The notes beneath the pieces were generated by a model. The model worked only from the letters and a program-made list of their open reading frames with translations. It was not told the origin of the DNA and ran no database searches. Positions 4,778-63,526 of a stretch of 64,000 bases of DNA are shown piece after piece. The stretch covers positions 1 to 64,000 of the forward strand of contig DASXUN010000010.1 in the NCBI GenBank assembly GCA_036504815.1, written 5' to 3'. Numbering within the stretch: the stretch's first letter is position 1; every line of letters begins with the position of its first letter. The DNA comes from Gemmatimonadaceae bacterium (lineage in GTDB: Bacteria; Gemmatimonadota; Gemmatimonadetes; Gemmatimonadales; Gemmatimonadaceae). The translations under genes and the position numbers were made by a program.

Positions 4778-7570
4778 CTAGGCGTACGAGAAAATCATCG
4801 CGTACAGGATCCCGATCACGATCAGCGTGCCGAGCGCCAGCGCGGTCCAGGCGAAGAAGCGAATCGCGCGGATCACGATGGGCTGGTAGGGCACCACGAG
4901 GTGTTCCTCCAGCTTGCCCGTGCGGACCAGCTCGGCGTACTCGTCCGGCTTGTCGTGCTCCAGCTCCTCCACCGTCATGCGCCCCGTGAAGACCACGAGG
5001 TCCATGGGGAACTTCTCCGGCCGCAGGTGCGTGTTGAAGAAGTGGATGGTGAAGATGAAGCCCGTGGCCAGGAGCGCCTCGTCGCTGTGCACGATCGTGG
5101 CGACGTTGATGAACCAGCCGGGGAGGAAGCGCGAGAAGAAGGTCGGGAACCAGAGCGTGAGCCCGGTGGAGCCGATGACGAAGATGCCCCAGAACACGGC
5201 GAAGTAGTCGAACTTCTCCCAGTAGGTCCACCGGCCGTACGCCGGCCGCTTGCCCTTGCCAAGGAACCACTTCACCGAGCCGATCAGCTCCATGAGGTCG
5301 CGCTTGTTGAACATCATCGACCCGGGGCCGAGCACCAGGTCCTTCCAGCTCGTGCCATCGCGCTGCTTGCGCTTCACGAGGTCGACCAGGTGCGTCACGA
5401 AGACGATCACCATGATCACCGCCGCGAAGCGATGGATGAAGCCCGCCGACTCGAAGCCGCCCAGCGTGCGCGACACGAACGCCGCCCACTGGGTGTACGA
5501 GAACTTCAGGGTCATGCCGGTGAGCGCCAGGCTGATGAAGCTGACGATCATCGCAATGTGCAGCATGCGGTTGAGCCGCGAGAACCGCTCGTATTCGAGT
5601 TCGCCTTCCTGGGCCGCCGGATGCCGCCCGAACTCCTGGCGCATCTTGAGCGCGCGCGGCAGCCACATGAGCGTGTGCGCGCCGCCGACGGTGAAGGTGA
5701 CGACCAGCAGCGAGGTCATCCCCCAGAAGACCCAGAAGAGCACCGGGTACTTGTGGAGGTCGTGGTGCGTGACGTGGGTCAGGTAGCCGGCGAAGCGCCG
5801 GTTGGCGCCCGCGTGGCACTTCTGGCACGTCTGCACCACGTTCTGCCGGCTGAGCTTCGACCGCACGTCGTCCACGCGCAGGATGTCGTGCGAGCCGTGG
5901 CAGTCGTAGCACTGCGCCGTCTTGGTGTAGCCCAGCCGCGAGACCTTGCCGTGGTACGTCTCGAAGTACGACTCGGTGATGTCCTTATGGCAGGTGCCGC
6001 ACTGCCCCATGATCTTGAGCTTGAACCCTTCGGCGTCGGTGCGCCCGATGGTGTGCGCCGAGTGGCAATCCTCGCAGACGGGGAGCTTCTGGTCGGTCTT
6101 GGTGACCAGTTCCGAGTGCACGCTGCGGGCGAACTGCTTGGCGATCCCCTCGTGGCAGCGTCCGCAGGTCTGCGGCAGGTTGTGGCGGTTGACGCTCGAA
6201 GTGGTGCTGTCGTGCGGGAGCACGCTGTGCGCGGTGTGGCAGCTGGTGCACGTCGCGGTGACGACGAGCCCGCTCTCCAGCAGCCCCTTGCCGTGGATGC
6301 TCTCGGCGTAGTTCTCGATGATCTGCTTTTCCGCGCCCCGGTAGTGGAGCGCGGCCTTCTGTCCGGTGCGGTGGCACTGGCCGCAGAGCGTCGGGATCTG
6401 GGTCGGGAAGATGGGCGACTGCGGGTTGGCCTTGCCCAGCACGCCGTGCGTGCCGTGGCACTGCTTGCACGATGGCCCGTTCGGGTCCTTCCGGGCCTCG
6501 AGCTGGCCGTGCGTGCTGACGCGGTAGAGGTCGCCGACCTCGGCGTGGCACGACGCGCAGTTGACCTTCGCGGTGATCGTCTCGCAGGGGCGCAGGCGCG
6601 AGGGCGAGACGCCGGTGTGGCACTGGCTGCAGCGGATCTTGTTGTGGATCGAGTTGGACAGCGAATCGAGCTTGACGCGCAGGGTGCGCCCGTCCTTGGA
6701 CGCCCGGATCCCCTCCTGCTCATGGCACCGCAGGCAGTCGCGGTCGGCCATCCCCTGGTCGTAGAAGACGCGGCGGGCCTTGTGCGGCTCGTGGCAGTCC
6801 ACGCAGGCCGGCAGGACGTGCCGCTCGCGCTCCCAGAGCCTGCCTTCGATGATCTTGCGGTGCACGTTCTCGATCGCGGCGTGGCAGGTGGAGCAGGTGG
6901 CCGCGATGTTGGCGCGCGCAATGGACGACTTCGGGTCGGTGTGCTTGCGGATCGAGTGCGCCGTGTGGCACGAGACGCACGTCGCGGCGACGGTGAGTCC
7001 CTTCGTCATCAGGGCCTCGCCGTGGATCGACTCCGTGTAGTTGTTGATGATGTTCGACTGGTGGATCGTGCGTTCCTTCTGCACGCGCCCGCCCTCGGAG
7101 TGGCACCGCCCGCACAGGTACGGGATGCGCGACGGCTGCACCGGCGACCGCGGGTCGCTGCGCCGCACCATCTCGTGGTTGCCGTGGCAGCTGCTGCACT
7201 TCGGCGCCAGCGGGTCGCCGCGCGCGATGGCCTTGCCGTGCAGCGACCCGTCGTGCTGCACCTGCTCCGCTTCGTGGCAGCTGCGGCACTGGGCCGGCTT
7301 CAGCGTCTCGTCGTGGGGGAGTTCCTTCCCCTTGAGGTCGGCGTGGCAGTCGGTGCAGCTCGTCTTGCCGTGCACCGAGCCCTTGAACTTCGTCTCGTCC
7401 ACGAAGAGCGACACCGTCCGGCCGTCGCGCTTCTTGGTGAGCCCCTTGTCGTTGTGGCAGGAGAGGCAGTCGTCGTTCCCCTGCGCCAGCGCCCGCGTGC
7501 CGCCCCCCGCGAGCAGGAGCAGCGCGCATGCGAGCAGGCCGGCGCGGAGCGCGGCCCTCAGTCTGGTCAT
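4778..7570 (-). CDS. Nineteen-haem cytochrome c fused to a cytochrome b561-like membrane domain
   Basis: A 930-residue protein with a signal peptide (about 1-30), then 19 CXXCH motifs between residues 35 and 588, then a membrane part (about 608-925) with five or more helices and histidines suited to b-type haems. In topology it resembles Geobacter CbcL, where a periplasmic multihaem c domain is fused to a di-haem b membrane domain that exchanges electrons with the quinone pool. The role in quinol oxidation or reduction is inferred. Residues about 125-230 and 368-473 are an obvious internal duplication (shared pattern CHG..H, P.IP.LCG.CH, NY.ESIHG, ATC.SCHTAHS). It is the last gene of a three-gene operon, 31 bp after the 13-haem paralogue, and ends at the repeat element. 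Electron partner and acceptor are not shown by the sequence. Confidence 0.9.
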   Translation of the reverse strand: MTRLRAALRAGLLACALLLLAGGGTRALAQGNDDCLSCHNDKGLTKKRDGRTVSLFVDETKFKGSVHGKTSCTDCHADLKGKELPHDETLKPAQCRSCHEAEQVQHDGSLHGKAIARGDPLAPKCSSCHGNHEMVRRSDPRSPVQPSRIPYLCGRCHSEGGRVQKERTIHQSNIINNYTESIHGEALMTKGLTVAATCVSCHTAHSIRKHTDPKSSIARANIAATCSTCHAAIENVHRKIIEGRLWERERHVLPACVDCHEPHKARRVFYDQGMADRDCLRCHEQEGIRASKDGRTLRVKLDSLSNSIHNKIRCSQCHTGVSPSRLRPCETITAKVNCASCHAEVGDLYRVSTHGQLEARKDPNGPSCKQCHGTHGVLGKANPQSPIFPTQIPTLCGQCHRTGQKAALHYRGAEKQIIENYAESIHGKGLLESGLVVTATCTSCHTAHSVLPHDSTTSSVNRHNLPQTCGRCHEGIAKQFARSVHSELVTKTDQKLPVCEDCHSAHTIGRTDAEGFKLKIMGQCGTCHKDITESYFETYHGKVSRLGYTKTAQCYDCHGSHDILRVDDVRSKLSRQNVVQTCQKCHAGANRRFAGYLTHVTHHDLHKYPVLFWVFWGMTSLLVVTFTVGGAHTLMWLPRALKMRQEFGRHPAAQEGELEYERFSRLNRMLHIAMIVSFISLALTGMTLKFSYTQWAAFVSRTLGGFESAGFIHRFAAVIMVIVFVTHLVDLVKRKQRDGTSWKDLVLGPGSMMFNKRDLMELIGSVKWFLGKGKRPAYGRWTYWEKFDYFAVFWGIFVIGSTGLTLWFPTFFSRFLPGWFINVATIVHSDEALLATGFIFTIHFFNTHLRPEKFPMDLVVFTGRMTVEELEHDKPDEYAELVRTGKLEEHLVVPYQPIVIRAIRFFAWTALALGTLIVIGILYAMIFSYA

Positions 7571-7601: not shown

Positions 7602-9767
7602 CTACGCGGGCTTCACGCCCGGTTCGTCATCATCCTCGTCCTCGACGGCCTGGGCGCGGAGCTGCGAGAGCTCCAGCGGGTGCTCGTCGAGCATCTCGCG
7701 CTCGGTGAGCGTCCCCTTCCAGAACGCGAGGTTGATGGGATAGATGTCGGGGTTGAAGATCACGAAGTAGATGTGCCAGACGAGGATGGCGAGCGTCGCC
7801 AGCCACGCTTCGTAGTAGTGCACCGTGCGGGCAATGTCCCAGCCGAGCTTGGTCAGCAGGTTCATGAACGTGTTGTCGAACCACAGGATGATGCCCGTGG
7901 CGCCCATCACGATGTTGCCCCACACCAGCGCCCAGTACTCGCTCTTCTCGATGTAGCTGAAGCGCCCGAACTTTGGCCGCACCGACGACCAGCCCAGGTT
8001 GTACTTCACCATGTCGATGGCGTCGAACAGGTCCTGCGGCACCGGGAACAGGTCCTTGACCAGCTGCCGGCCGCGCGGGACGAAGGCGAGGTAGTACACG
8101 TGGTAGACGCTCGCCACCAGCATGATCACGCCGGCGATGCGGTGCACCAGGCTGCGCAGGTCGAAGACGCCCGGGAGGTTCCGGTGCAGCGGCGCCACCC
8201 ACCACGCCTCGGGGAACTTGAGCGCGAAGCCGGTGATCACCAGCGTGACGAAGCTGATGACCAGCGTGGCATGCTGCAGCCGCTCGTTGAGCGACATGCG
8301 CAGGTACAGCGTGTGGCCGCCATGCTCGGCGTCAATCAGCCCGCGGCGCACCTTGAGGTTGTGCTTCGACTTCTTGATGAAGTCGAGCAGGTTGTGCACC
8401 AGCATGCCGCCGATGATCAGCGCGATGAGGATGATGTAGCCCATCGCCACCCAGTACAGGATCGGTTCCTGCTCCTGGGTGAGCGTGATGTGCACCGAGC
8501 CCTGCGCAAAGCGCTCGCTCGCGCCCGGATGGCACCGGCCGCACGTGACCTTGAGGTTCGCCTTGCTGACGCGCGACGTCGAATCGGAGGACGGCTTGAT
8601 GTCGTGTCCGCCGTGGCAGCTGGCGCAGTTGGCGACCGAGAGCGAGCCGCCGCGGCTCGCGAGTCCGTGGTAGCTGTCGGTGAACGTCTTGAAGCGATCG
8701 CTGCGCAGCCCGTACTTGGCCGAGAGCGCGACCGACGCGTGGCAGGGCTGGCAGACCTGCGCCGAGACGTTGGTGGGCGCCGTGCGCGACTTGGGATCCT
8801 TCTTGCCGAGGATCGTGTGCTCGCCATGGCACGAGGTGCAGACCGGGGAGTCGTCGTTCCCCTTGGCCGCCTCGACCCCGTGCACGCTCGTCTTGTAGAC
8901 CGCGGCGATCTGCGTATGGCACTTGCCGCAGGTGTTCGGGATGTTCTGGCGGGCCACGAACGACGAGTTGTCGGAGCCGCGCTTCATGTCGTGGCTGCCG
9001 TGGCAGCTCACGCAGTTCGCGGCGTCGGCCATCCCCCTCTTCTCGAGCGCCTGGCCGTGCACGCTGTTGTCGTAGCCCGCGATGAAGCCGGCCGTCGGCG
9101 AGGTGCGCGCCCGCACGTCCGCGTTGTCGAGATGGCAGCCGAAGCAGAGCTTGTTCTGGTTCAGCTTCACCGTGAGCGAATCGGCGCTTCCGAAGACAAA
9201 GCCGACGCCGCGATGGCAGGTGAGGCAAGTCGGGGCGCCCTTGACGCCCTTCGCCAGGGCCTGGCCGTGCGCCGACGACGGGAAGTGCTCCGCCGCCTTC
9301 TGGTGGCACTGCCCGCAGTCCTGCGTCAGGCGCTCCCGGGAGAAGGGGGCGCCGGGCGTCTTCGGCGAGGCGACGTTGTGCCGGCCGTGGCAGGTCTGGC
9401 AGAGGGTCTTGGGCAGCTTCCCCTGCGAGACGGCCCGGTTGAGCTCGGGATGGAACGGGTGCTTGAGCGCCGCCTTGCCGTGGCAGCGCGCGCAGTTGAC
9501 CGGCGTGATCTCGGCCTTGTGCGGCAGCTCCTCGGGGTTGAACCCGACGTGGCAGGAGACGCAGGCGAGCTTCTCGTGCGTGGACTTGTTGAGGATCTTC
9601 TCGTCCACGAACAGCGAGATCGTCTTCTTGTTCGCGCCCTCTTTGGTGAGGGTCTTGTCGTTATGACACTGCAGGCAGTCCTCGCGCGTCTGCGCGAGGG
9701 CTGCCTGGGCACCCAGTTGAGTGAAGGTTCCGAGCACGAGGAACAGGACAAACAGACGGCGAATCAT
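7602..9767 (-). CDS. Thirteen-haem cytochrome c fused to a cytochrome b561-like membrane domain
   Basis: A 721-residue paralogue of the 930-residue neighbour. Signal peptide about 1-26, thirteen CXXCH motifs from residue 31 to about 413, then a helical membrane domain (about 436-675) with conserved histidines (LQHATLVISF, LVHRIAGVIML, VWHIYFVIF) suited to b-haem ligation, and an acidic C-terminal tail (VEDEDDDE). The two proteins share the N-terminal pattern DCLxCHNDKxLTK and SLFVDE and the membrane region WA..WG..V.G.TG..LWF, so one arose from the other with gain or loss of haem modules. Co-directional with the tetrahaem gene upstream (49-bp gap). Probably a membrane quinone:cytochrome oxidoreductase (inference). 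Confidence 0.9.
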   Translation of the reverse strand: MIRRLFVLFLVLGTFTQLGAQAALAQTREDCLQCHNDKTLTKEGANKKTISLFVDEKILNKSTHEKLACVSCHVGFNPEELPHKAEITPVNCARCHGKAALKHPFHPELNRAVSQGKLPKTLCQTCHGRHNVASPKTPGAPFSRERLTQDCGQCHQKAAEHFPSSAHGQALAKGVKGAPTCLTCHRGVGFVFGSADSLTVKLNQNKLCFGCHLDNADVRARTSPTAGFIAGYDNSVHGQALEKRGMADAANCVSCHGSHDMKRGSDNSSFVARQNIPNTCGKCHTQIAAVYKTSVHGVEAAKGNDDSPVCTSCHGEHTILGKKDPKSRTAPTNVSAQVCQPCHASVALSAKYGLRSDRFKTFTDSYHGLASRGGSLSVANCASCHGGHDIKPSSDSTSRVSKANLKVTCGRCHPGASERFAQGSVHITLTQEQEPILYWVAMGYIILIALIIGGMLVHNLLDFIKKSKHNLKVRRGLIDAEHGGHTLYLRMSLNERLQHATLVISFVTLVITGFALKFPEAWWVAPLHRNLPGVFDLRSLVHRIAGVIMLVASVYHVYYLAFVPRGRQLVKDLFPVPQDLFDAIDMVKYNLGWSSVRPKFGRFSYIEKSEYWALVWGNIVMGATGIILWFDNTFMNLLTKLGWDIARTVHYYEAWLATLAILVWHIYFVIFNPDIYPINLAFWKGTLTEREMLDEHPLELSQLRAQAVEDEDDDEPGVKPA

Positions 9768-55064: not shown

Positions 55065-56131
55065 CAGGCGCGGCCGGCCACGAACCAGCAGCTGGCTTGG
55101 GGCGATGCCTTCATGAAGTCGAGGAGCATCGCCCCGACCTTTTGCCGGGCGCCGGTGCCGGGGTGCGTGTTGTCCGTGGCAAAGTCCGATGGCACCCACG
55201 TGAGGCCGTCCGACCGCGGCGTCGCGCCGTTGGCCCACAGGTAAGGTCCCCACGCCAGCCACGGCGCCACGATGCCAGGGCGCAAGTCGCCGGCGCGCGC
55301 ATCAGGAACCCCATCCGTCCCCTGCTTGATCTGCGCCTCGATGAGCCATTTGACGGCGTAGCCCGTCTCGTACGCGAACGGCTCCGGATTCAGCGTGCCG
55401 GATTGCGCGTACCCCGCGTAGATGCGGCTGGAGAGGAAGACCATCTGCAGGTTCGGATAGCGCACCTTCAGCGTGCGCACGAGCTTGCCGAGGCCCGTGA
55501 CGATCGCGTACGCGTCCGCATTCGCCGCCGGCAGCGAGACGCTCGGTCCGGGCGTGGCCTGCTTGAGCCAGACGGCCTGCACCTGCGCCTCGGTGACGCC
55601 GAGGGCGGCGAGGCGCTGGTCGCGCACGGTGGCATAGGTGGCGTCGGTCGGCTCATCCCAGTTGACGATGACCATTCCGCCCTGCGCGCCATCCGCGAGC
55701 ACCACGCGCGCCCGGTTGAACGACGGATCGGCGAGCGCCTGCCCCACAAACGAGAAGGACTGGCACGCGGTGGGCCCGCCACCGCAGTACTCCTGCGTGG
55801 TGTTGGACATGCCGACGGAGAGCAGGACGATCTTGCCGTTGGCGTCGGGCTGCCCCGCGGCGTTGAGCGGCCGGATGTTCCGCGCGAACGTGGCGCCGAG
55901 CGCGGCATGCACGCTCGGCATCGTGTTCGCGCCATTCGGATACAGTCCGCCCTGGAAGCCGCGATAGGTGCGCGCGCCCAAGTCAGTGAGAGGTACCTTC
56001 GCAGTGTCTGGCAGGAGCGAAGTGTCGGGACCGGACGGCGAGGTGGAGGAGGTGCAGGTCGCCAGGACCGCGACAACTCCCGGCAGCAGGACGAAGCGGA
56101 CGCGCCGCGCCGACCGAACCGCTACTCGCAC
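55061..56131 (-). CDS. Secreted SGNH-hydrolase-like lipoprotein candidate
   Basis: A 356-residue exported protein. Hydrophobic segment FVLLPGVVAVLATC is followed by a Ser/Pro-rich linker; Cys26 may be a lipobox cysteine although Thr at -1 is atypical. VLLSVGMSNTTQEYC could be a variant block I, with Ser in GMSN, and DNTHPGTGARQKVG near the C terminus fits the Asp-His of block V, which together suggest an SGNH/GDSL-type esterase. Several Cys pairs (YCGGGPTAC, SCWFVAGRAC) suggest disulfides. GTG start overlaps the M1 peptidase stop by 10 bases. Family assignment is uncertain. Confidence 0.6.
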   Translation of the reverse strand: MRVAVRSARRVRFVLLPGVVAVLATCTSSTSPSGPDTSLLPDTAKVPLTDLGARTYRGFQGGLYPNGANTMPSVHAALGATFARNIRPLNAAGQPDANGKIVLLSVGMSNTTQEYCGGGPTACQSFSFVGQALADPSFNRARVVLADGAQGGMVIVNWDEPTDATYATVRDQRLAALGVTEAQVQAVWLKQATPGPSVSLPAANADAYAIVTGLGKLVRTLKVRYPNLQMVFLSSRIYAGYAQSGTLNPEPFAYETGYAVKWLIEAQIKQGTDGVPDARAGDLRPGIVAPWLAWGPYLWANGATPRSDGLTWVPSDFATDNTHPGTGARQKVGAMLLDFMKASPQASCWFVAGRAC

Positions 56132-58167
56132 CGCGGCCGTCCGAATCCGGGTGGACCGCCCGCGGCCGGCGCCGCCTGCACCGTCGGCTTGGGCCACGTG
56201 TTGTCGGACGGATCGCGATCCGGGAACCGGCAGTACGGATCGAGCGTGATCTTCTCGATGGGGCGCGGTCCGAAGTCGAGCACAGCATTGAACGTGCGAT
56301 TGCCGTTGAACCAGACGTCCACCGGCCACGTCACCACGGCGGTCGTGCCGTCGGTCATCACCGCGTTCTTCATCGGCCGGATGTCCGGCCCTTCCGCCGC
56401 GAATTTCACGCGCAGCACCACCGGCGACGGCATCTGGCCGTCCTGCCGCACGGTCACCGTCGTCGTGCCGTGGGCGCTGCGCACCCCGGTAATCGATCCG
56501 TCCACCGATTCCGTCGTGAACAGCCAGTAGTACCAGAACCAGCCCAGCTCCTTCTTGAGCGCGCGGCTCATCAAGAAGGCGTAGTCCCACGGCGCGGGAT
56601 GCTTGAACAGCCAGGCCTTGGCGAACTCGCTCTGCGCGCGCCAGACCGCGGTGTCGCCCACGAGGCCGCCGAGCATCGAGAGCATCAGCGGCGCCTTGCT
56701 GTACGCCTGGAAGCGATACATCGGGCCGCCGTAGTTGGCGTCCCACATCAGCGGCGCCTCGGTCTCGTCGCCGCTGGTGCGCCCGTACGACTGCCCCAGC
56801 CCGTCGAGGTTCGCGGCCTGCCGGTTGCGATCCGCGCCGGAGAGGATGTTCATGTACTGGTTGAACCCCTCATCCATGAAGCCGTACCACGTCTCATTGT
56901 TGCCGACCATCATCGGCCACCACTGATGGCCCGTCTCATGATCGGCGGCGCCGGCGGCCGACCCGATGAACATCGGGAACTCCATTCCCGTGTCCGGACC
57001 GTCGGTAAGCGTGAGCTGCGGGAACTCGTACGGAATCCACAGCTTCGAGTAGAACTCCAGGGCATGCTTGGCCAGCGGACCGGCCTGCACGTACTGCGGG
57101 GCGTGGCCCGGCTCGTAGAACAGATGGACCGGGATCACGCCCTTGCCCGGAATCGTCGCGCGCGTGACGTCCCAGACGAAACGATCGGAGCTCGACCAGG
57201 CGAAATCGCTCACGAGGTCGGCGACCCAGTGCCAGGTGAGCCGCGTGCCATCGGCGGTGGACTTTCCGGGGCCGCGTTCCGCGGCGGTGACCACCGGCCG
57301 GATGCTGTCGGACTCGAGCGCGTGCGACAACCGCTCGCGGGCCGTGGGCGTCAGCACCTCGGCGGGGTTCTGCAGCAAACCCGTGGCGGCCACCAGCCAT
57401 CCGGCGGGCGCATCGATGGTGACGTCGAAGTGGCCGAAGTTGTTGTAGAACTCTGACGGGCCCAGATACGGGTCGGTGTCCCAGCCTCTCAGGTCGTCGT
57501 AGACCGCGACGCGCGGGTACCACTCGGCCACCTGCACCAGGCTGTCGCCCCACGCGCCCATGCGCAGGCCGCGTCCGTTCTCCGCGTTGGGCGCCTTGAA
57601 GTTCCACTCCGCCTCGAGCGTCGCCGTGCTGCGCGGCGCGATGGGCGTGGGGAGCGTGATGCGCGCGGAGGTCGTGTTCATTCCCGTGGCCGCGAGCCGC
57701 ACCGGCGGCGGCGCCCCCTGCGCGCCCGGCCCGCCTGGACGCCGCTGCGGCGCCGGCGGGTTGAGATCCACCGTCTCGCCGTTGAAGGTGATGCGCGTGA
57801 CGCGCATGCCGTCGGTGATCTCGGGGACCGTCTGCGCCCGCGCGACGTTGGCGGCGTAGATGTTCTGGTCGAGGCGCAGCTGGATGCTGCGCATCGCCGA
57901 GTCGCTGTTGTTGTGGATGACCACCGTCTCGCGGCCGCTGATCCGCATGGCGGGCACATCCAACCGCGCCTGAATGGTGTAGTCCACGCGCGTCTGCCAG
58001 TAGCTCTTTCCGGGCCGGCCCGTGGAATCACGCGTTCCGGCGGCGAAGGCGCGTCGGATCATGTTGGTCAGCGGAATGTCGCGCCGGATGGCGCGCGTCG
58101 GCGCCTGCGCGGTGGCGGCCAGCGGGAGGACGAGCGCGGTGAACGCGAGCAGCCGGGTTGCGCGCAT
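56122..58167 (-). CDS. M1-family metallopeptidase
   Basis: A 681-residue exported aminopeptidase-type enzyme (signal peptide about 1-20). Zinc site HETGHQWW with the third ligand in MDEGFNQYMN. The substrate-binding exopeptidase motif appears as GMEFPMFIGS in place of the usual G-M-E-N, which changes one key residue. N-terminal beta-saddle with Pro/Gly-rich insert (PPAPQRRPGGPGAQGAPPP). Ends with low-complexity PAAGGPPGFGRP. First gene of a pair with the SGNH-like gene. Likely scavenges peptides outside the cytoplasm. Confidence 0.9.
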   Translation of the reverse strand: MRATRLLAFTALVLPLAATAQAPTRAIRRDIPLTNMIRRAFAAGTRDSTGRPGKSYWQTRVDYTIQARLDVPAMRISGRETVVIHNNSDSAMRSIQLRLDQNIYAANVARAQTVPEITDGMRVTRITFNGETVDLNPPAPQRRPGGPGAQGAPPPVRLAATGMNTTSARITLPTPIAPRSTATLEAEWNFKAPNAENGRGLRMGAWGDSLVQVAEWYPRVAVYDDLRGWDTDPYLGPSEFYNNFGHFDVTIDAPAGWLVAATGLLQNPAEVLTPTARERLSHALESDSIRPVVTAAERGPGKSTADGTRLTWHWVADLVSDFAWSSSDRFVWDVTRATIPGKGVIPVHLFYEPGHAPQYVQAGPLAKHALEFYSKLWIPYEFPQLTLTDGPDTGMEFPMFIGSAAGAADHETGHQWWPMMVGNNETWYGFMDEGFNQYMNILSGADRNRQAANLDGLGQSYGRTSGDETEAPLMWDANYGGPMYRFQAYSKAPLMLSMLGGLVGDTAVWRAQSEFAKAWLFKHPAPWDYAFLMSRALKKELGWFWYYWLFTTESVDGSITGVRSAHGTTTVTVRQDGQMPSPVVLRVKFAAEGPDIRPMKNAVMTDGTTAVVTWPVDVWFNGNRTFNAVLDFGPRPIEKITLDPYCRFPDRDPSDNTWPKPTVQAAPAAGGPPGFGRPRCE

Positions 58168-58213: not shown

Positions 58214-58384
58214 TTACGCGCCGCGGTGCCCCGACGTTTTGGGCAGGTGTGCCTTCGGCACGGGCGGCGGCGCCGGATGCGCGGCCAGCGGCGGCGGCGG
58301 CTGGTCCTTGTCCGCCTTGGGGAGTCGCGTCTGCGTCTTGTGCGACGCGAAATCGGGAACCTTGGTGTTGTGCTTCTTTGACAT
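58214..58384 (-). CDS. Small basic proline-rich protein, 56 residues
   Basis: ATG at 58384 preceded by AGGG at a good distance, ending TAA at 58214. The 56-residue product starts MSKKHNTKVPDF, is rich in Lys, His and Pro (KDQPPPPLAAHPAPPPVPK), and has no signal peptide, Cys or membrane helix. Codon use is as GC-rich in third positions as the neighbours, which supports coding. I recognise no family. It sits alone between the M1 gene and the PAS gene, on their strand. May be nucleic-acid binding by its charge (inference), or a false positive. Confidence 0.6.
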   Translation of the reverse strand: MSKKHNTKVPDFASHKTQTRLPKADKDQPPPPLAAHPAPPPVPKAHLPKTSGHRGA

Positions 58385-58508
58385 AGAGAGGCCCTCCGTG
58401 TCCTCTGGGCGGGGAAGTCGCTCGGAGCGAGCGCCGCATCGTCCTGTATGATTCTCTCGCGCATCACACAGGTGCGCAATGCCGCGGAGTCGTACGAACC
58501 CCGTCGCT

Positions 58509-59189
58509 CTACGGTTGCCTGGGGAACACCGTGTCCAGGTGCCGCATCTGATCCTCGTAGCACGCCGGGCAGATCCCGTGGCTGAACACCACGTCCGAAT
58601 GGTCGGTGACGTAATGCTCGACCTGCTGCCAGGCGTCGTCGCTCGTTCTTACCTTCTTGCAGTACGAGCAGATCGAGAGGATCCCTTCGAGCCGTGAGAC
58701 GCGGTCGAGCGTCGCCTGCAGTTCCGCCTTCTGGAGCGTGAGTGTCTGGTTGAGCTGCTGCAGCACGAGGTTGGCTTGCGCGAGGTCGCGCTGCGCGCCC
58801 GCGTAGTCCCGGTTGAGCATCAGCACGACCTCATTGAGCCGCGTGAGCTCCTCGATGTCATGCTCCGCGATGATGCGCAGCTCCCGTCCCGCGCGAGTGA
58901 CCACGCCGCGCAGTGAACAGGTGCGCCCCTGGAAATCGCCGATGGTCAACAGGCCGCGATAGACGTCGCCAGCATCACTGGCGGCCGTCCCCGCGGCCGT
59001 CCCGGCGAGCGTCTCGAACGTCGGCTGCAGAAAGCAGTGGGCGACGTTGGCGCCGGGATGGCCGTCCGACGCCGGCTCGATCAATCGCCGGAAGCCCGCT
59101 TTCGCCCACCGCAGCGTGCCGTCTTCGTCGACGTTCGCCACCGCGACCGCGGTCAGCGACTCCAGCTCAGGAAAAGGGTGATCCATCAC
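58509..59189 (-). CDS. PAS-like sensor protein with coiled coil and C-terminal CXXC-CXXC motif
   Basis: A 226-residue cytosolic protein. Residues about 8-110 resemble a PAS domain (VAVANVDEDGTLRWAKAGF, LRGVVTRAGRELRIIAEHD). A coiled coil (about 113-168; LAQANLVLQQLNQTLTLQKA) follows. The C terminus has ILSICSYCKKVR (Cys 174, 177) and HGICPACYE (Cys 207, 210), a zinc-type module found at the ends of many sensor kinases and regulators. No kinase or HTH domain exists, so it must signal through another protein. Overlaps the cobalamin-binding gene by ATGA, which argues that they act together. Confidence 0.8.
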   Translation of the reverse strand: MMDHPFPELESLTAVAVANVDEDGTLRWAKAGFRRLIEPASDGHPGANVAHCFLQPTFETLAGTAAGTAASDAGDVYRGLLTIGDFQGRTCSLRGVVTRAGRELRIIAEHDIEELTRLNEVVLMLNRDYAGAQRDLAQANLVLQQLNQTLTLQKAELQATLDRVSRLEGILSICSYCKKVRTSDDAWQQVEHYVTDHSDVVFSHGICPACYEDQMRHLDTVFPRQP

Positions 59190-60301
59190 GATACGCCACC
59201 CACCATTGCCTCGGCGCGCTCGAGCGCCGCCCGGGCGTCAACGCCGACCGCATCCGCGTGCACTCGCTCGGCAATAGGTGCGAAGTTGTTGATCGCAAGC
59301 CCGCCCACGATCACGCCGGGACGCCGCAGGCCAAGGCGCGCGTCGAGCTGCGCGATGACGTCGCGAACCACCGGCAGCTGTTGCGCAAACGAGACCGACA
59401 GGCCGAGCAGGTGGGGCTGCCATTCGATGACCTGGCCGATGAGCGCCGGCGTCGGCACGTTTGGCCCGAGATAGCGCACGTCCCATCCGCCCAGCAGAAA
59501 GGCATCCGCGACAATGCGCAGTCCGATGGCGTGGTCGTTGCCCGCGACGCAGGCCAGCAGCACCTTCTTGCCGTTCGCGGCACGCGGCGACGCCTGCAGC
59601 AGGGCGATGGTCATCACCGACTGCACGATGGCGCTCGCCATGTGCTCCTGAGCGACGGACACTTCGTTTGCCTGCCAGCGCTCCCCGATGCGATACAGCG
59701 CCGACTGGATGACGTGGAGCTCGACGTCGACCAGCGAACGCCCGTCATTCATGCAGCGTAGCACGACCGCGAGCGCGTCCTGCTGGCTGCCGGCCAGGAG
59801 GGCGGCCTCGAATTCCCGCGCTTCAGGCCACGCCTCCCGCGTCATGCGCGGCGCCGGTGGCGCGGCGCCGGCATCCATAAATTCTCCGCGCGCCGCCCGC
59901 AGCGCCGTGACGACCACCGCGGCATCGGCTGCGTTCAACCGTTCCGCAAAGAACTCGGCCAGCCACTCGAGCGACAGCGGCAGATGCTCGGCGGGGACGC
60001 CGCGCGCCGCCAGCACGCTGGCCAGCCAGCGCAGGTAGTCCACCATCGGTTGCAGCAGCCCGAACTCGAGGACGGGGCGCAGGAACTCCAGGTGGAAAGC
60101 CAGGTCCTCGCGCGTCGCCTCCCGGCCGCGCGCGCCGAAGCGCTCGAGCGCCTTCGGGAAGGTCGCATAGAACCGCTCCGCGACGGCGTTCACCGCGTCG
60201 GACCTCAGCGCATGGAAGCGCTCGAGACCCGACTGGTCAAGCAACCGCCGTTCGGAGCCGGTGGACACGGAGCGTCTCACAGTGGGAGAGGCATGCTGCA
60301 C
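59186..60301 (-). CDS. Cobalamin-binding sensor, candidate B12 photoreceptor without DNA-binding domain
   Basis: A 371-residue cytosolic protein. Residues about 20-145 are an unassigned helical domain; about 155-235 form a B12-binding helical bundle with W209 and E219-H220 in the W-x9-EH spacing that marks AdoCbl light sensors of the CarH type (WQANEVSVAQEH); about 245-365 are a Rossmann B12-binding domain with GNDHAIG, where His257 is the expected lower cobalt ligand (the usual D of DxHxxG is Asn255). CarH proteins carry an N-terminal MerR domain; here none exists, as in AerR-type proteins. Light-dependent behaviour is inferred. Coupled to the PAS gene; its own start is ATG with no clear alternative. 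Confidence 0.82.
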   Translation of the reverse strand: MQHASPTVRRSVSTGSERRLLDQSGLERFHALRSDAVNAVAERFYATFPKALERFGARGREATREDLAFHLEFLRPVLEFGLLQPMVDYLRWLASVLAARGVPAEHLPLSLEWLAEFFAERLNAADAAVVVTALRAARGEFMDAGAAPPAPRMTREAWPEAREFEAALLAGSQQDALAVVLRCMNDGRSLVDVELHVIQSALYRIGERWQANEVSVAQEHMASAIVQSVMTIALLQASPRAANGKKVLLACVAGNDHAIGLRIVADAFLLGGWDVRYLGPNVPTPALIGQVIEWQPHLLGLSVSFAQQLPVVRDVIAQLDARLGLRRPGVIVGGLAINNFAPIAERVHADAVGVDARAALERAEAMVGGVS

Positions 60302-60382
60302 TACGGTCCTGCGCAGGGAATCTCGGCGGCGGTGTGCGCGCCCGCAATGCCGCGCACCCGGGGAGAGACCCGCTGGCGCGTT

Positions 60383-61216
60383 CTATCGATCGTCCAGGAA
60401 GAACCCGTCCGCGTCGAGATGCGCCGGGAACCGCCGCCGGTGCTCCCGCAGCCGCTCCAGCGACAGCACCGCCTTCGCGGTCTGCGCCGTCGCGTCGCAT
60501 TCCACGAGGGTTTGCCCCACCGGATCGGCGGCAATCGATCCCCCTTGGTACGGATGGCCATTGCCGTCCGTGCCGGTGCGGTTCACGCCCACCACGTAGC
60601 AGAGGTTTTCCATCGCCCGCGCGCGCAGCAACGTGCGCCACGCCTCGTGGCGCGCCGCCGGCCAATTGGCGACGTAGAGCAGAAGATCATATTCGAGTTC
60701 GTCGCCCCGCGTTGGGTCGGGGCGGTTGCGCGCAAAGACCGGGAAGCGCAGGTCGTAGCAGACCATTGGGCAGATGCGCCAGCCGTGAAATTCCACGATG
60801 AGCCGCCCGCGGCCCGCCGCGTACCACTGCTGCTCGCGCGCCATGCGGAACAGGTGCCGCTTGTCGTAGTGGCGCACCGCGCCGTCTGGTGTCGCGAACA
60901 GCAGGCGGTTGAAAACGGCCTCGCCGTCGCGGATCTGCACGCTCGCGGTCACGGCCGCGTCACGCGCGCGCGCCAAATCCCGCATCCAGGCGACCGTCTC
61001 ACCCTCCATCGTTTCGGCCCGCGACACGGCGTCGTTGGAGAAACCGGTGGTGAAGGTCTCCGGCAGCACGATCAGCTGTGGATCGTTGCCGACATCCGTA
61101 GCAGCCGCGGCCCCCGCCGCGCCGAGCATCCGCTCCACTTGCGCGCGGTTTGCCGCTGGATCGTGCCAGCGCGTGTCGGGTTGCACCAGCGTCACGCGCA
61201 GATCGGGCTCGCTCAT
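60383..61216 (-). CDS. Carbon-nitrogen hydrolase, omega-amidase YafV-like
   Basis: A 277-residue nitrilase-superfamily amidase. Catalytic triad Glu in VLPETFTTGFS, Lys in YDKRHLFRMA, and Cys in ICPMVCYDLRFPVF are all present. The closest recognisable group is YafV/Nit2, omega-amidases of 2-oxo-acid amides such as 2-oxoglutaramate and the keto-methylthiobutyramate formed in methionine salvage. This fits the aminotransferase of the same operon two genes upstream, since glutamine-dependent transamination creates that kind of product. Starts one base before the kinase stop ends, so strictly adjacent. Confidence 0.9.
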   Translation of the reverse strand: MSEPDLRVTLVQPDTRWHDPAANRAQVERMLGAAGAAAATDVGNDPQLIVLPETFTTGFSNDAVSRAETMEGETVAWMRDLARARDAAVTASVQIRDGEAVFNRLLFATPDGAVRHYDKRHLFRMAREQQWYAAGRGRLIVEFHGWRICPMVCYDLRFPVFARNRPDPTRGDELEYDLLLYVANWPAARHEAWRTLLRARAMENLCYVVGVNRTGTDGNGHPYQGGSIAADPVGQTLVECDATAQTAKAVLSLERLREHRRRFPAHLDADGFFLDDR

Positions 61217-63526
61217 CTAGACTCCGTCCAGCGCGCTGCGTACGGTCGCGAGCAGCGTGCGGGTGTCGAACGGTTTCTGCAGGAATTTCGCCCCGTGCTG
61301 AAACGCGCCACGGCTGGCAAAGACGTCCGCCGCGTGTCCCGACATGAAGACGGGTCGAAGGGTGGGGAGCAGTTCCAGCAACGCCGCCGCCAGGTCGCGT
61401 CCATTCATGACCGGCATCACCAAGTCGGCGAGCAACAGGTGCACCGCCCCCGGATGTTCACTGGCAATCCGCAGCGCCTCCACCGGTCCGCTCGCGGCGA
61501 GCACCTCGTAGCCCTCGTTCTGGAGCACGCGCTGGGCCAGCCGAAGCAGCGCGGGCTCGTCCTCGACCACGAGGATGGTCTCGTGACCGCGTGACACCGG
61601 GACCGCGGGCTCGACGGGCCGCCTGGGCGGCACTTCACCTTCAAAGCGCGGCAGGTAGATGGCAAACACCGCCCCCGCGCCCGGCTCGCTCTCGACGGTG
61701 ATGAAGCCCTCGTTCTGCCGCACGGCGCCGTAGACCGAGGCCAGCCCGAGCCCGGTTCCTTCGCCGAGCGCCTTGGTCGTGAAGAACGGCTCGAAGATGC
61801 GCGCGCGCGTCGCCTCATCCATTCCGCGGCCCGTATCGCGGACGGAGAGGCAGACGTACTCACCGGGCGCCGCGTCCACGTGCGCCTCGCAGAACGCGGC
61901 ATCCACCGAACAATTGCCGGTGGCAATCGTCACGTGGCCCACGTCGGCGATTGCGTGGCGCGCGTTCAGGGCGAGGTTGGTCAGGATGCTGGCCACTTGC
62001 GTCGGATCCACCTTCACCGGCCAGACGGAGTCCGCTGGCTCGAACGTGACGTCGACGCTCTCCCCCAGCAGCCGCTGCAGCATGCGCATCTCGCCGGCAA
62101 CGGTATCGTTGAGGTCGAGCACCACCGGGTCGGCGTGCTGCCGCCGTGCAAACGCCAGCAACTGGCGCGTCAGCGCGGCCGACCGCTCCGCCGACTTCCG
62201 GATTTCGACGAGTTCTTCGTAGAGGGGATCGCTGGGGGCCACCTTCATCAGCGCCAGCTCCGCCGACGCGAGGATCACGCCGAGCATGTTGTTGAAGTCG
62301 TGTGCGACGCCGCCCGCCAGGCGGCCCACCGACTCCATTCTCTGGATCTGCTCCACCTGGGCCTGCAGCCGGAGCCGCGCATCCTCCTCGCGCTTGCGGT
62401 CGGTGACATCCTGCACGGTCGAGATCATCAGGTCCTGCTCCGGCAGCGGGATGTTGCTCGCCGAGATCACGCGCTGCTCGCCACTGGCGGTCGTGATCGG
62501 GATGTCCTCCCAGTGCATCCGGTCGATGTCCCCGGACATGAGGTCTGCCATGATCCGCGTCCGCATCTGCTCGCGGAAGATCGGATCGCGGTAGACCTTC
62601 TCGAAGAAGTCGTCGACGCCTTCGATGCTCCCCGGCTCCACCCCGTAGGTGCGCTCGAACTTCGTGCCGATGTAGAGCTGCCGCCCCGTGGAGATCTCAT
62701 TGACGGCGAGTCCGAGCGGCAGGTGCTCCAGCAGCGTCTCCACGAAGCGGCTGCGCCGGCGCAACTCCTCCTCGGCCCGCCGTTGCCGGCTGACGTCGCG
62801 GATCACCAGGAACTGCACGGGCCGGCCGCCGAGCGTGGTCGGGACCACGCTCACGTCCACGGCGGTGCTGCCGCCGTCGAGCCGCCGCAGGGTGAGCGGC
62901 CGCGGTGCGGCCGGTCCATCCTCAGCGGACGGGCTGCGCATCAACGCCTGCACGTCGTCCCACGACTCCGGGACAAAGCGATCGCGCAGCGGATGACCGA
63001 TCAGCTCGGCCTTGCCCGCCGCCCCAGACATCCGCAGGGCCATCGCGTTCGCGTAGGTGACCTCCCCCTCGTCCACGATGAACACACAATTCGGGGCCAG
63101 TTCGACGACGGCCCGAAAGCGCTCCTCGCTTTCCCGCAGGTTCTCCGTGATGCGCCGCATCGCGGTGATGTCGCGGCGCGTCACCACGACGCCCAGTATC
63201 TCCCCGTCCGTGCCGCGGAGCGGCCACGCGCTGGAGAGCATCACCCGCTCGGGATCCACCGCCACCGGCAGCTCAAGGTCGCTGAAGCTCTCGCCCTGCT
63301 CGGTGACGCGGCGCAGGAGCGGCTCGATAATCGCCCAGACGTCGGGGCGCACGATCTCGCGCACGGATCGGCCGAGATGGGCGTCGGACGGCAGCCCGTT
63401 GGCCGCGGCGGCCGGGGCATTGATGCGCACGTAGCGGAGGTCGCGATCGAGCACGGCGATGCCCAGCGGACTCATGCCCATCAGGCTGTCGAGGATCACC
63501 TCGTCCAGACGATCCGCAGGGGTCAT
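61217..63526 (-). CDS. Multi-PAS hybrid histidine kinase with receiver domain
   Basis: A 769-residue soluble hybrid kinase (no membrane helix). PAS 1 about 15-125 (DSLMGMSPLGIAVLDRDLRY), PAS 2 about 140-255, PAS 3 about 265-385, then the kinase core with H-box RLAGGVAHDFNNMLGV, N-box NLALNARHAI, G1 VRDTGRGMD, G2 GTGLGLASVYG, then a C-terminal receiver (about 640-769) with phospho-acceptor Asp in LLLADLVMPVMNG and Lys in LQKPFD. The start is ATG 63526, overlapping the aminotransferase stop as ATGA. It sits inside a metabolic operon, between aminotransferase and omega-amidase. Confidence 0.93.
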   Translation of the reverse strand: MTPADRLDEVILDSLMGMSPLGIAVLDRDLRYVRINAPAAAANGLPSDAHLGRSVREIVRPDVWAIIEPLLRRVTEQGESFSDLELPVAVDPERVMLSSAWPLRGTDGEILGVVVTRRDITAMRRITENLRESEERFRAVVELAPNCVFIVDEGEVTYANAMALRMSGAAGKAELIGHPLRDRFVPESWDDVQALMRSPSAEDGPAAPRPLTLRRLDGGSTAVDVSVVPTTLGGRPVQFLVIRDVSRQRRAEEELRRRSRFVETLLEHLPLGLAVNEISTGRQLYIGTKFERTYGVEPGSIEGVDDFFEKVYRDPIFREQMRTRIMADLMSGDIDRMHWEDIPITTASGEQRVISASNIPLPEQDLMISTVQDVTDRKREEDARLRLQAQVEQIQRMESVGRLAGGVAHDFNNMLGVILASAELALMKVAPSDPLYEELVEIRKSAERSAALTRQLLAFARRQHADPVVLDLNDTVAGEMRMLQRLLGESVDVTFEPADSVWPVKVDPTQVASILTNLALNARHAIADVGHVTIATGNCSVDAAFCEAHVDAAPGEYVCLSVRDTGRGMDEATRARIFEPFFTTKALGEGTGLGLASVYGAVRQNEGFITVESEPGAGAVFAIYLPRFEGEVPPRRPVEPAVPVSRGHETILVVEDEPALLRLAQRVLQNEGYEVLAASGPVEALRIASEHPGAVHLLLADLVMPVMNGRDLAAALLELLPTLRPVFMSGHAADVFASRGAFQHGAKFLQKPFDTRTLLATVRSALDGV

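Follow-up and report, generated by a model that had tools for sequence, protein, structure and literature searches.

Two overlapping genes in the window (the whole 64,000-nucleotide stretch of a Gemmatimonadaceae contig that was analysed here) raise the question of how a putative B12-dependent light sensor that has no output domain could pass its signal to the cell. The original prediction had placed two such genes here, and both their positions and their overlap were confirmed, with open reading frames at 59186-60301 and 58509-59189. All the window features described below are on the minus strand. The host of the pair is a lake-type bacterium (genome G000).

The B12-binding protein and its N-terminal globin

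The first gene (59186..60301) encodes a protein of 371 aa with globin and B12-binding domains. The B12-binding part consists of a B12-binding_2 four-helix cap (residues 162-232, 59606..59818, Pfam E 4.5e-14) and a B12-binding Rossmann domain (residues 246-359, 59225..59566, Pfam E 2.9e-15). The light-response motif W209-x9-E219-H220 (59642..59677) and H257 (59531..59533), the predicted lower axial cobalt ligand, are exactly as had been claimed from the sequence, and W209, E219, H220, H257 and P283 were all found in 35/35 homologues. The GNDH that ends in H257 is the GxxH motif of the full GxxW/EH/GxxH/GxxxP signature of light-responsive B12 domains (PMC11796333), which is present in the window protein as IGERW, EH, GNDH and GPNVP; the roles of the W-x9-EH residues have been described previously (PMC11796333, PMC10979010). 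With this signature complete and no MerR/HTH or other output domain above the Pfam cut-off, the protein is predicted to be an AdoCbl-type light sensor without a DNA-binding domain, as originally proposed. Its AlphaFold model has a pLDDT of 91.5, and the modelled B12 part matches those of CtMerR (2.2 A) and SasPcob (1.5 A). The genome also encodes an AdoCbl-forming adenosyltransferase.

A phmmer search of the PDB with the window protein gave the photocobilins 8j2w, 8j2x and 8j2y as the top or near-top matches. The SasPcob entry 8j2w was matched twice, its B12 domain by window residues 162-359 and its C-terminal globin by residues 30-117. The N-terminal third, previously taken for an unknown helical domain, is thus the bilin-binding globin of photocobilins (photoglobin/biliverdin-binding-like, residues 21-144, 59870..60241), as was also found with profile A6, made from this domain in 35 homologues, which matches the 8j2y and 8j2w globins at E 5e-7, with phycocyanin alpha chains next, from E 0.0015.

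In SasPcob, Asp270 and Trp296 are the key biliverdin contacts, the latter touching the D ring and the corrin (Zhang et al. 2024, PMC10979010). Counting along the phmmer alignment, in which the lower-ligand His108 sets an offset of 6, these residues correspond to D66 (60104..60106) and W92 (60026..60028) of the window protein, which are present in 34/35 and 35/35 homologues, respectively; the sole exception at D66 is a His in L098, as in AbPcob. Position 63, where photoglobins have a Cys, is Cys in 25/35 homologues and Thr in the window copy. The three copies found in the window genome and a congener (G002) all have Thr at this position and all retain D66 and W92. SasPcob also has Thr at the aligned site, and binds biliverdin without a covalent bond (PMC10979010).

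Because the N-terminal domain is a bilin-type globin in which D66 and W92 are kept, the product of 59186-60301 is, by sequence criteria, very probably a photocobilin rather than a CarH protein. Of the earlier wording, "CarH-like without MerR", the lack of MerR holds and the likeness to CarH is better read as photocobilin. Membership of the CarH family itself was rejected, because there is no MerR domain and the NCBIfam CarH score, 55 bits, is far below the cut-off of 400. The globin-first order is not new, since photocobilins were already divided in 2024 by the position of the B12 domain, which is N-terminal in some and C-terminal in others (PMC10979010).

The PAS-helix partner and its exchangeable outputs

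The second gene (58509..59189) encodes a protein of 226 aa and overlaps the photocobilin stop codon; with GTG as its start codon the overlap is 4 bases (GTGA), and with the next ATG it is 1 base (TGATG). Its predicted fold bears out the earlier description of a PAS, helix and CxxC protein. The PAS domain (about residues 12-110, 58860..59156; 15-110 in the AlphaFold model m723e9d368f51) resembles the PAS domains of NifL, PpsR and PYP in PDB fold matches, and would be followed by a single long signalling helix (residues 112-168, 58686..58856) and a small CxxC domain (58527..58682; Cys 174, 177, 207 and 210) that may be a zinc-binding output domain. No HTH was found in the partner with Pfam, and a PDB sequence search with the PAS-helix family returned no homologue, PpsR included. 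The first part of the helix, to about residue 145, is conserved in all output variants; conservation is stronger in residues 112-145 (mean entropy 1.19) than in the PAS core (1.52), and N126, Y129, Q133, Q138, N140 and L143 are conserved across all output types.

A total of 59 photocobilin-family loci turned up in a scan of 84,980 genomes. Close relatives, at 41-65% identity, account for about 26 of these and come from Pseudomonadota and allied MAGs. As the original prediction had anticipated, the pair recurs in relatives: the PAS-helix gene lies directly downstream of the photocobilin in all 26 close proteobacterial loci with sequence there, as well as in both loci of a congener (L064/L087 and L065/L095), and the 4-base overlap of the two genes is frequent. 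The pairing extends across phyla in homologues of 53-65% identity, far beyond chance.

What follows the conserved PAS-helix differs among these loci. It leads to GGDEF in L073, L074, L075, L080, L083, L086, L088, L091, L092, L096, L098, L099 and L100, to a histidine kinase (HisKA-HATPase) in L065/L095, L076, L079, L081, L082, L084, L085, L089, L090, L093 and L094, and to the CxxC domain in the window, L064/L087 and the second partner of L086, where a GGDEF version and a CxxC version are in tandem. The PAS-helix is also present in L077, L078 and L097, cut off or frameshifted before the output. Since one conserved PAS-helix is fused to GGDEF, kinase or CxxC, the partner looks like a common receiver with interchangeable outputs. 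L073, L083 and L086, which are among the closest relatives found, are labelled Bordetella parapertussis or Klebsiella pneumoniae in their records. These labels do not match the sequences, and the records are probably mislabelled environmental Betaproteobacteria MAGs.

The CxxC domain has no Pfam match, and the same tail is C-terminal in proteins of about half of 99 related genomes (L036-L063), at the ends of REC, REC-PAS, PAS, CHASE-PAS and TPR proteins. Its location in the REC, PAS and TPR proteins is the usual place of output domains. A literature search for its signature SHGICP found no papers. The chances that this domain is an output module appear to be about even; it could instead be sensory or structural.

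Gene neighbourhood, origin and chromophore supply

The original prediction had also suggested that the pair feeds the hybrid kinase encoded upstream. This PAS-PAS-PAS-HisKA-HATPase-REC histidine kinase (61217..about 63526, start approximate; open reading frame and Pfam) is a possible downstream partner, and an omega-amidase/nitrilase-like gene (60383..61216), probably unrelated judging from domain matches and neighbourhood comparison, lies between it and the photocobilin. Signalling to a kinase gains indirect backing from the relatives, in which the PAS-helix is fused to histidine kinases, whereas the evidence for this particular kinase is circumstantial. In the window it lies between aminotransferase and omega-amidase genes that are adjacent to each other without a kinase in the congeners L150 and L151, so a fixed partnership is not supported as a rule, and the fusion of a kinase or cyclase to the partner itself in close relatives also disfavours it. 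The hybrid kinase is nevertheless still a possible partner, because in G007, another congener, the aminotransferase/omega-amidase pair is followed by a 1266-aa hybrid kinase and then by a decayed photocobilin (L070, about 8075-8547).

In a tree of 35 photocobilins the window copy falls inside a 26-row, otherwise almost wholly proteobacterial clade (100/100), and the other Gemmatimonadota copies form a separate deep clade. The aminotransferase and omega-amidase encoded in the flanks share 72-84% identity with their counterparts in congeneric genomes, from which the contig is taken to be native. Given its nesting among proteobacterial photocobilins, the window pair was probably acquired by horizontal transfer. 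Rfam and tRNA scans of the window gave no matches, and a promoter and terminator scan of 58300-61400 gave none above shuffles. Downstream of the pair, on the same strand, there is a large open reading frame (56122-58167) with a weak M1-peptidase match (E 0.0056).

Most photocobilin carriers have a gene of about 100 aa for an ABM protein (IsdG/HmoB-like) just upstream of the photocobilin (L073 5491-5787, L074 5660-5959, L069 4972-5292, L068 about 7097-7417, and others); the more distant carriers have it as a fusion with the PAS-CxxC protein or close to the globin gene. The ABM profile A2 matches MhuD and HmoB (both 8e-15), IsdI (2e-9) and IsdG (5e-9). The catalytic triad of IsdG-type heme oxygenases is Asn-Trp-His. 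The relatives' ABM proteins all carry the catalytic-type His, and those from proteobacteria also the Trp, but 18/18 aligned copies have Ser at the Asn position. No papers were found in a literature search for ABM together with B12-binding and globin domains.

The carrier genomes were searched for canonical heme oxygenase (PF01126), and those without ABM at the photocobilin locus were searched genome-wide for it. With ABM counts that include fragments or fusions at L086, L088, L097, L101 and L110, and with one ABM-negative case (L084) cut by a contig end, 33 genomes have ABM without heme oxygenase, 4 have both, 7 have heme oxygenase without ABM, and 2, the window genome and its congener G002, have neither. 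The two genes are anti-associated (Fisher p = 1.8e-4; p = 2.2e-4 with strict heme oxygenase calls; 0.02 in the close clade only), in tests that ignore shared ancestry and MAG gaps. The occurrence of ABM mainly where canonical heme oxygenase is missing suggests, though with somewhat less than even probability, that it stands in for this enzyme and makes bilin in the relatives. The genome-wide search of G000 for these two enzyme classes found neither a PF01126 heme oxygenase nor an ABM relative, and neither was found in G002; for this reason the chromophore supply is the weak point of the window locus. A bilin source in the genome does not belong to the published definition of photocobilins, but would be expected of a working one. 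The window globin may be empty, or may take bilin from outside or from another enzyme class, for instance a HugZ-type one.

Some loci have other arrangements of these modules. These include a globin-B12-REC fusion in an Acidobacteriia MAG (L107 1807-3249), an ABM-PAS-histidine kinase fusion in a Chloroflexi MAG (L109 7035-8645), and, in Corallococcus, Archangium and relatives (L113-L121), a B12 gene upstream of a separate globin gene and a histidine kinase gene. Both searched genomes of this last group (n=2) have heme oxygenase.

A candidate photocobilin relay and its relation to known systems

The window pair is reasonably likely to be a two-protein photocobilin relay, and a dedicated line from the photocobilin to the PAS-helix partner is, if anything, slightly more probable. 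In this proposal the first protein would be a photocobilin that stands alone, its bilin-binding globin preceding a CarH-type domain that binds AdoCbl. By analogy with SasPcob and AbDPcob, it would bind AdoCbl and undergo light-driven Co-C cleavage with a quaternary change. In the dark, AdoCbl would keep the four-helix cap dimer-competent; green light, or red light through the bilin if one is bound, would break the Co-C bond, and release of the adenosyl group would let the W209/E219/H220 cap move. The second protein would be the dedicated receiver, made up of a PAS domain and a long dimeric helix. The B12 protein would dock on this helix, by analogy with the AerR-like SCHIC domain, which in PpsR occupies the helix that follows a PAS domain (PMC9144470). 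A light-dependent change in docking would then travel down the helix to the C-terminal module, a diguanylate cyclase or histidine kinase in the relatives and the CxxC domain in the window, which as output or adaptor could bring in another protein, perhaps the hybrid kinase encoded nearby. A broader version is doubtful, namely a mobile modular operon in which a dedicated ABM enzyme takes the place of heme oxygenase and makes the bilin on site, the sensor docks on the PAS-helix, outputs are exchangeable, the CxxC domain, common in bacterial signalling proteins, is a novel type of output, and scavenged bilin serves the window copy.

The main competing explanation is that the window protein responds to green light through AdoCbl only, with the globin as a structural or allosteric leftover without bilin in this lineage. 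The lack of PF01126 heme oxygenase and ABM in G000 and G002, and Thr at position 63 in their copies where 25/35 homologues have Cys, are in its favour, as is the precedent of AbDPcob, with its weak biliverdin occupancy (PMC10979010). However, none of these three copies has lost D66 or W92, SasPcob binds biliverdin with the same Thr, and uptake of biliverdin from outside is possible, all of which leave this explanation a serious but unlikely one.

Two further explanations do without light. B12-binding proteins without a light function are common, and PAS domains often sense redox or ligands. A sensor of cobalamin status or redox, reporting AdoCbl availability to the PAS partner like the metabolic corrinoid sensors, would fit both facts, and the CxxC motif could be redox-active; but the protein has every light-response motif that tells photoreceptor B12 domains apart from those of enzymes, and the fused globin is a photopigment-type domain, which makes such a sensor improbable. 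A corrinoid methyltransferase-type carrier mis-read as a sensor is disfavoured to the point of being negligible, because the weak NCBIfam matches that hint at it (MtgC, MtbC and MtaC, about 20-47 bits) are far under their cut-offs of 215-450, there is no methyltransferase partner gene, W-x9-EH is retained, and the partner proteins of the relatives carry GGDEF or kinase domains.

The two-protein photocobilin relay, although the reading preferred here, has forerunners. AerR-CrtJ is an older relay from a B12 protein to a PAS protein. With that relay and standalone photocobilins already known, the "undescribed type" of the original prediction was too strong. One standalone photocobilin, proposed to act by protein contact, alters diguanylate cyclase activity (PMC10979010). 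The less expected part is the operon with a PAS-helix partner, which looks like a modular variant of the photocobilin photoreceptors. Photocobilins were described in 2024 as acting by fusion or by unspecified protein contacts (PMC10979010); the window locus and related loci provide a standalone one with a natural cognate partner, and receivers fused to a diguanylate cyclase or kinase offer a direct enzymatic read-out. If ABM makes bilin, it would be a new chromophore route for photoreceptors in bacteria without heme oxygenase, and the separate sensor, receiver and output would be a useful layout for green/red optogenetics.

The window protein shares with the photocobilins SasPcob (8J2W/8J2X) and AbDPcob (8J2Y; PMC10979010) the CarH-type B12 domain with its motifs, the bilin-type globin and the biliverdin-contact Asp and Trp. 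It differs from them in its N-terminal globin, in the obligate PAS-helix partner gene with swappable outputs, and in the IsdG/HmoB-like ABM gene of its relatives. The Pre-2/BBAG-2 clusters also encode a bilin-binding globin beside a B12-binding protein, but there the genes are separate and are associated with bilin reductase and heme oxygenase, and the main text of their description mentions no ABM gene or histidine kinase (PMC10151467). The relatives' ABM proteins share the fold by profile, the catalytic-type His and, in most, the Trp with the IsdG/MhuD/HmoB enzymes, and depart from IsdG/IsdI in having Ser for the catalytic Asn; the window lacks the gene. With CarH the window protein has in common the B12 domain, W-x9-EH and the lower His ligand, whereas a globin takes the place of the MerR DNA-binding domain. 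Photoglobin-B12 proteins were reportedly treated by Schneider and colleagues in 2022. As in AerR-CrtJ/PpsR and AppA-PpsR, a standalone B12 (or heme) protein would act on a long-helix PAS protein; however, AerR has no globin, the helix of the window partner has no sequence match to PpsR, and this partner has no DNA-binding domain, its type of helix leading instead to CxxC, GGDEF or a kinase.
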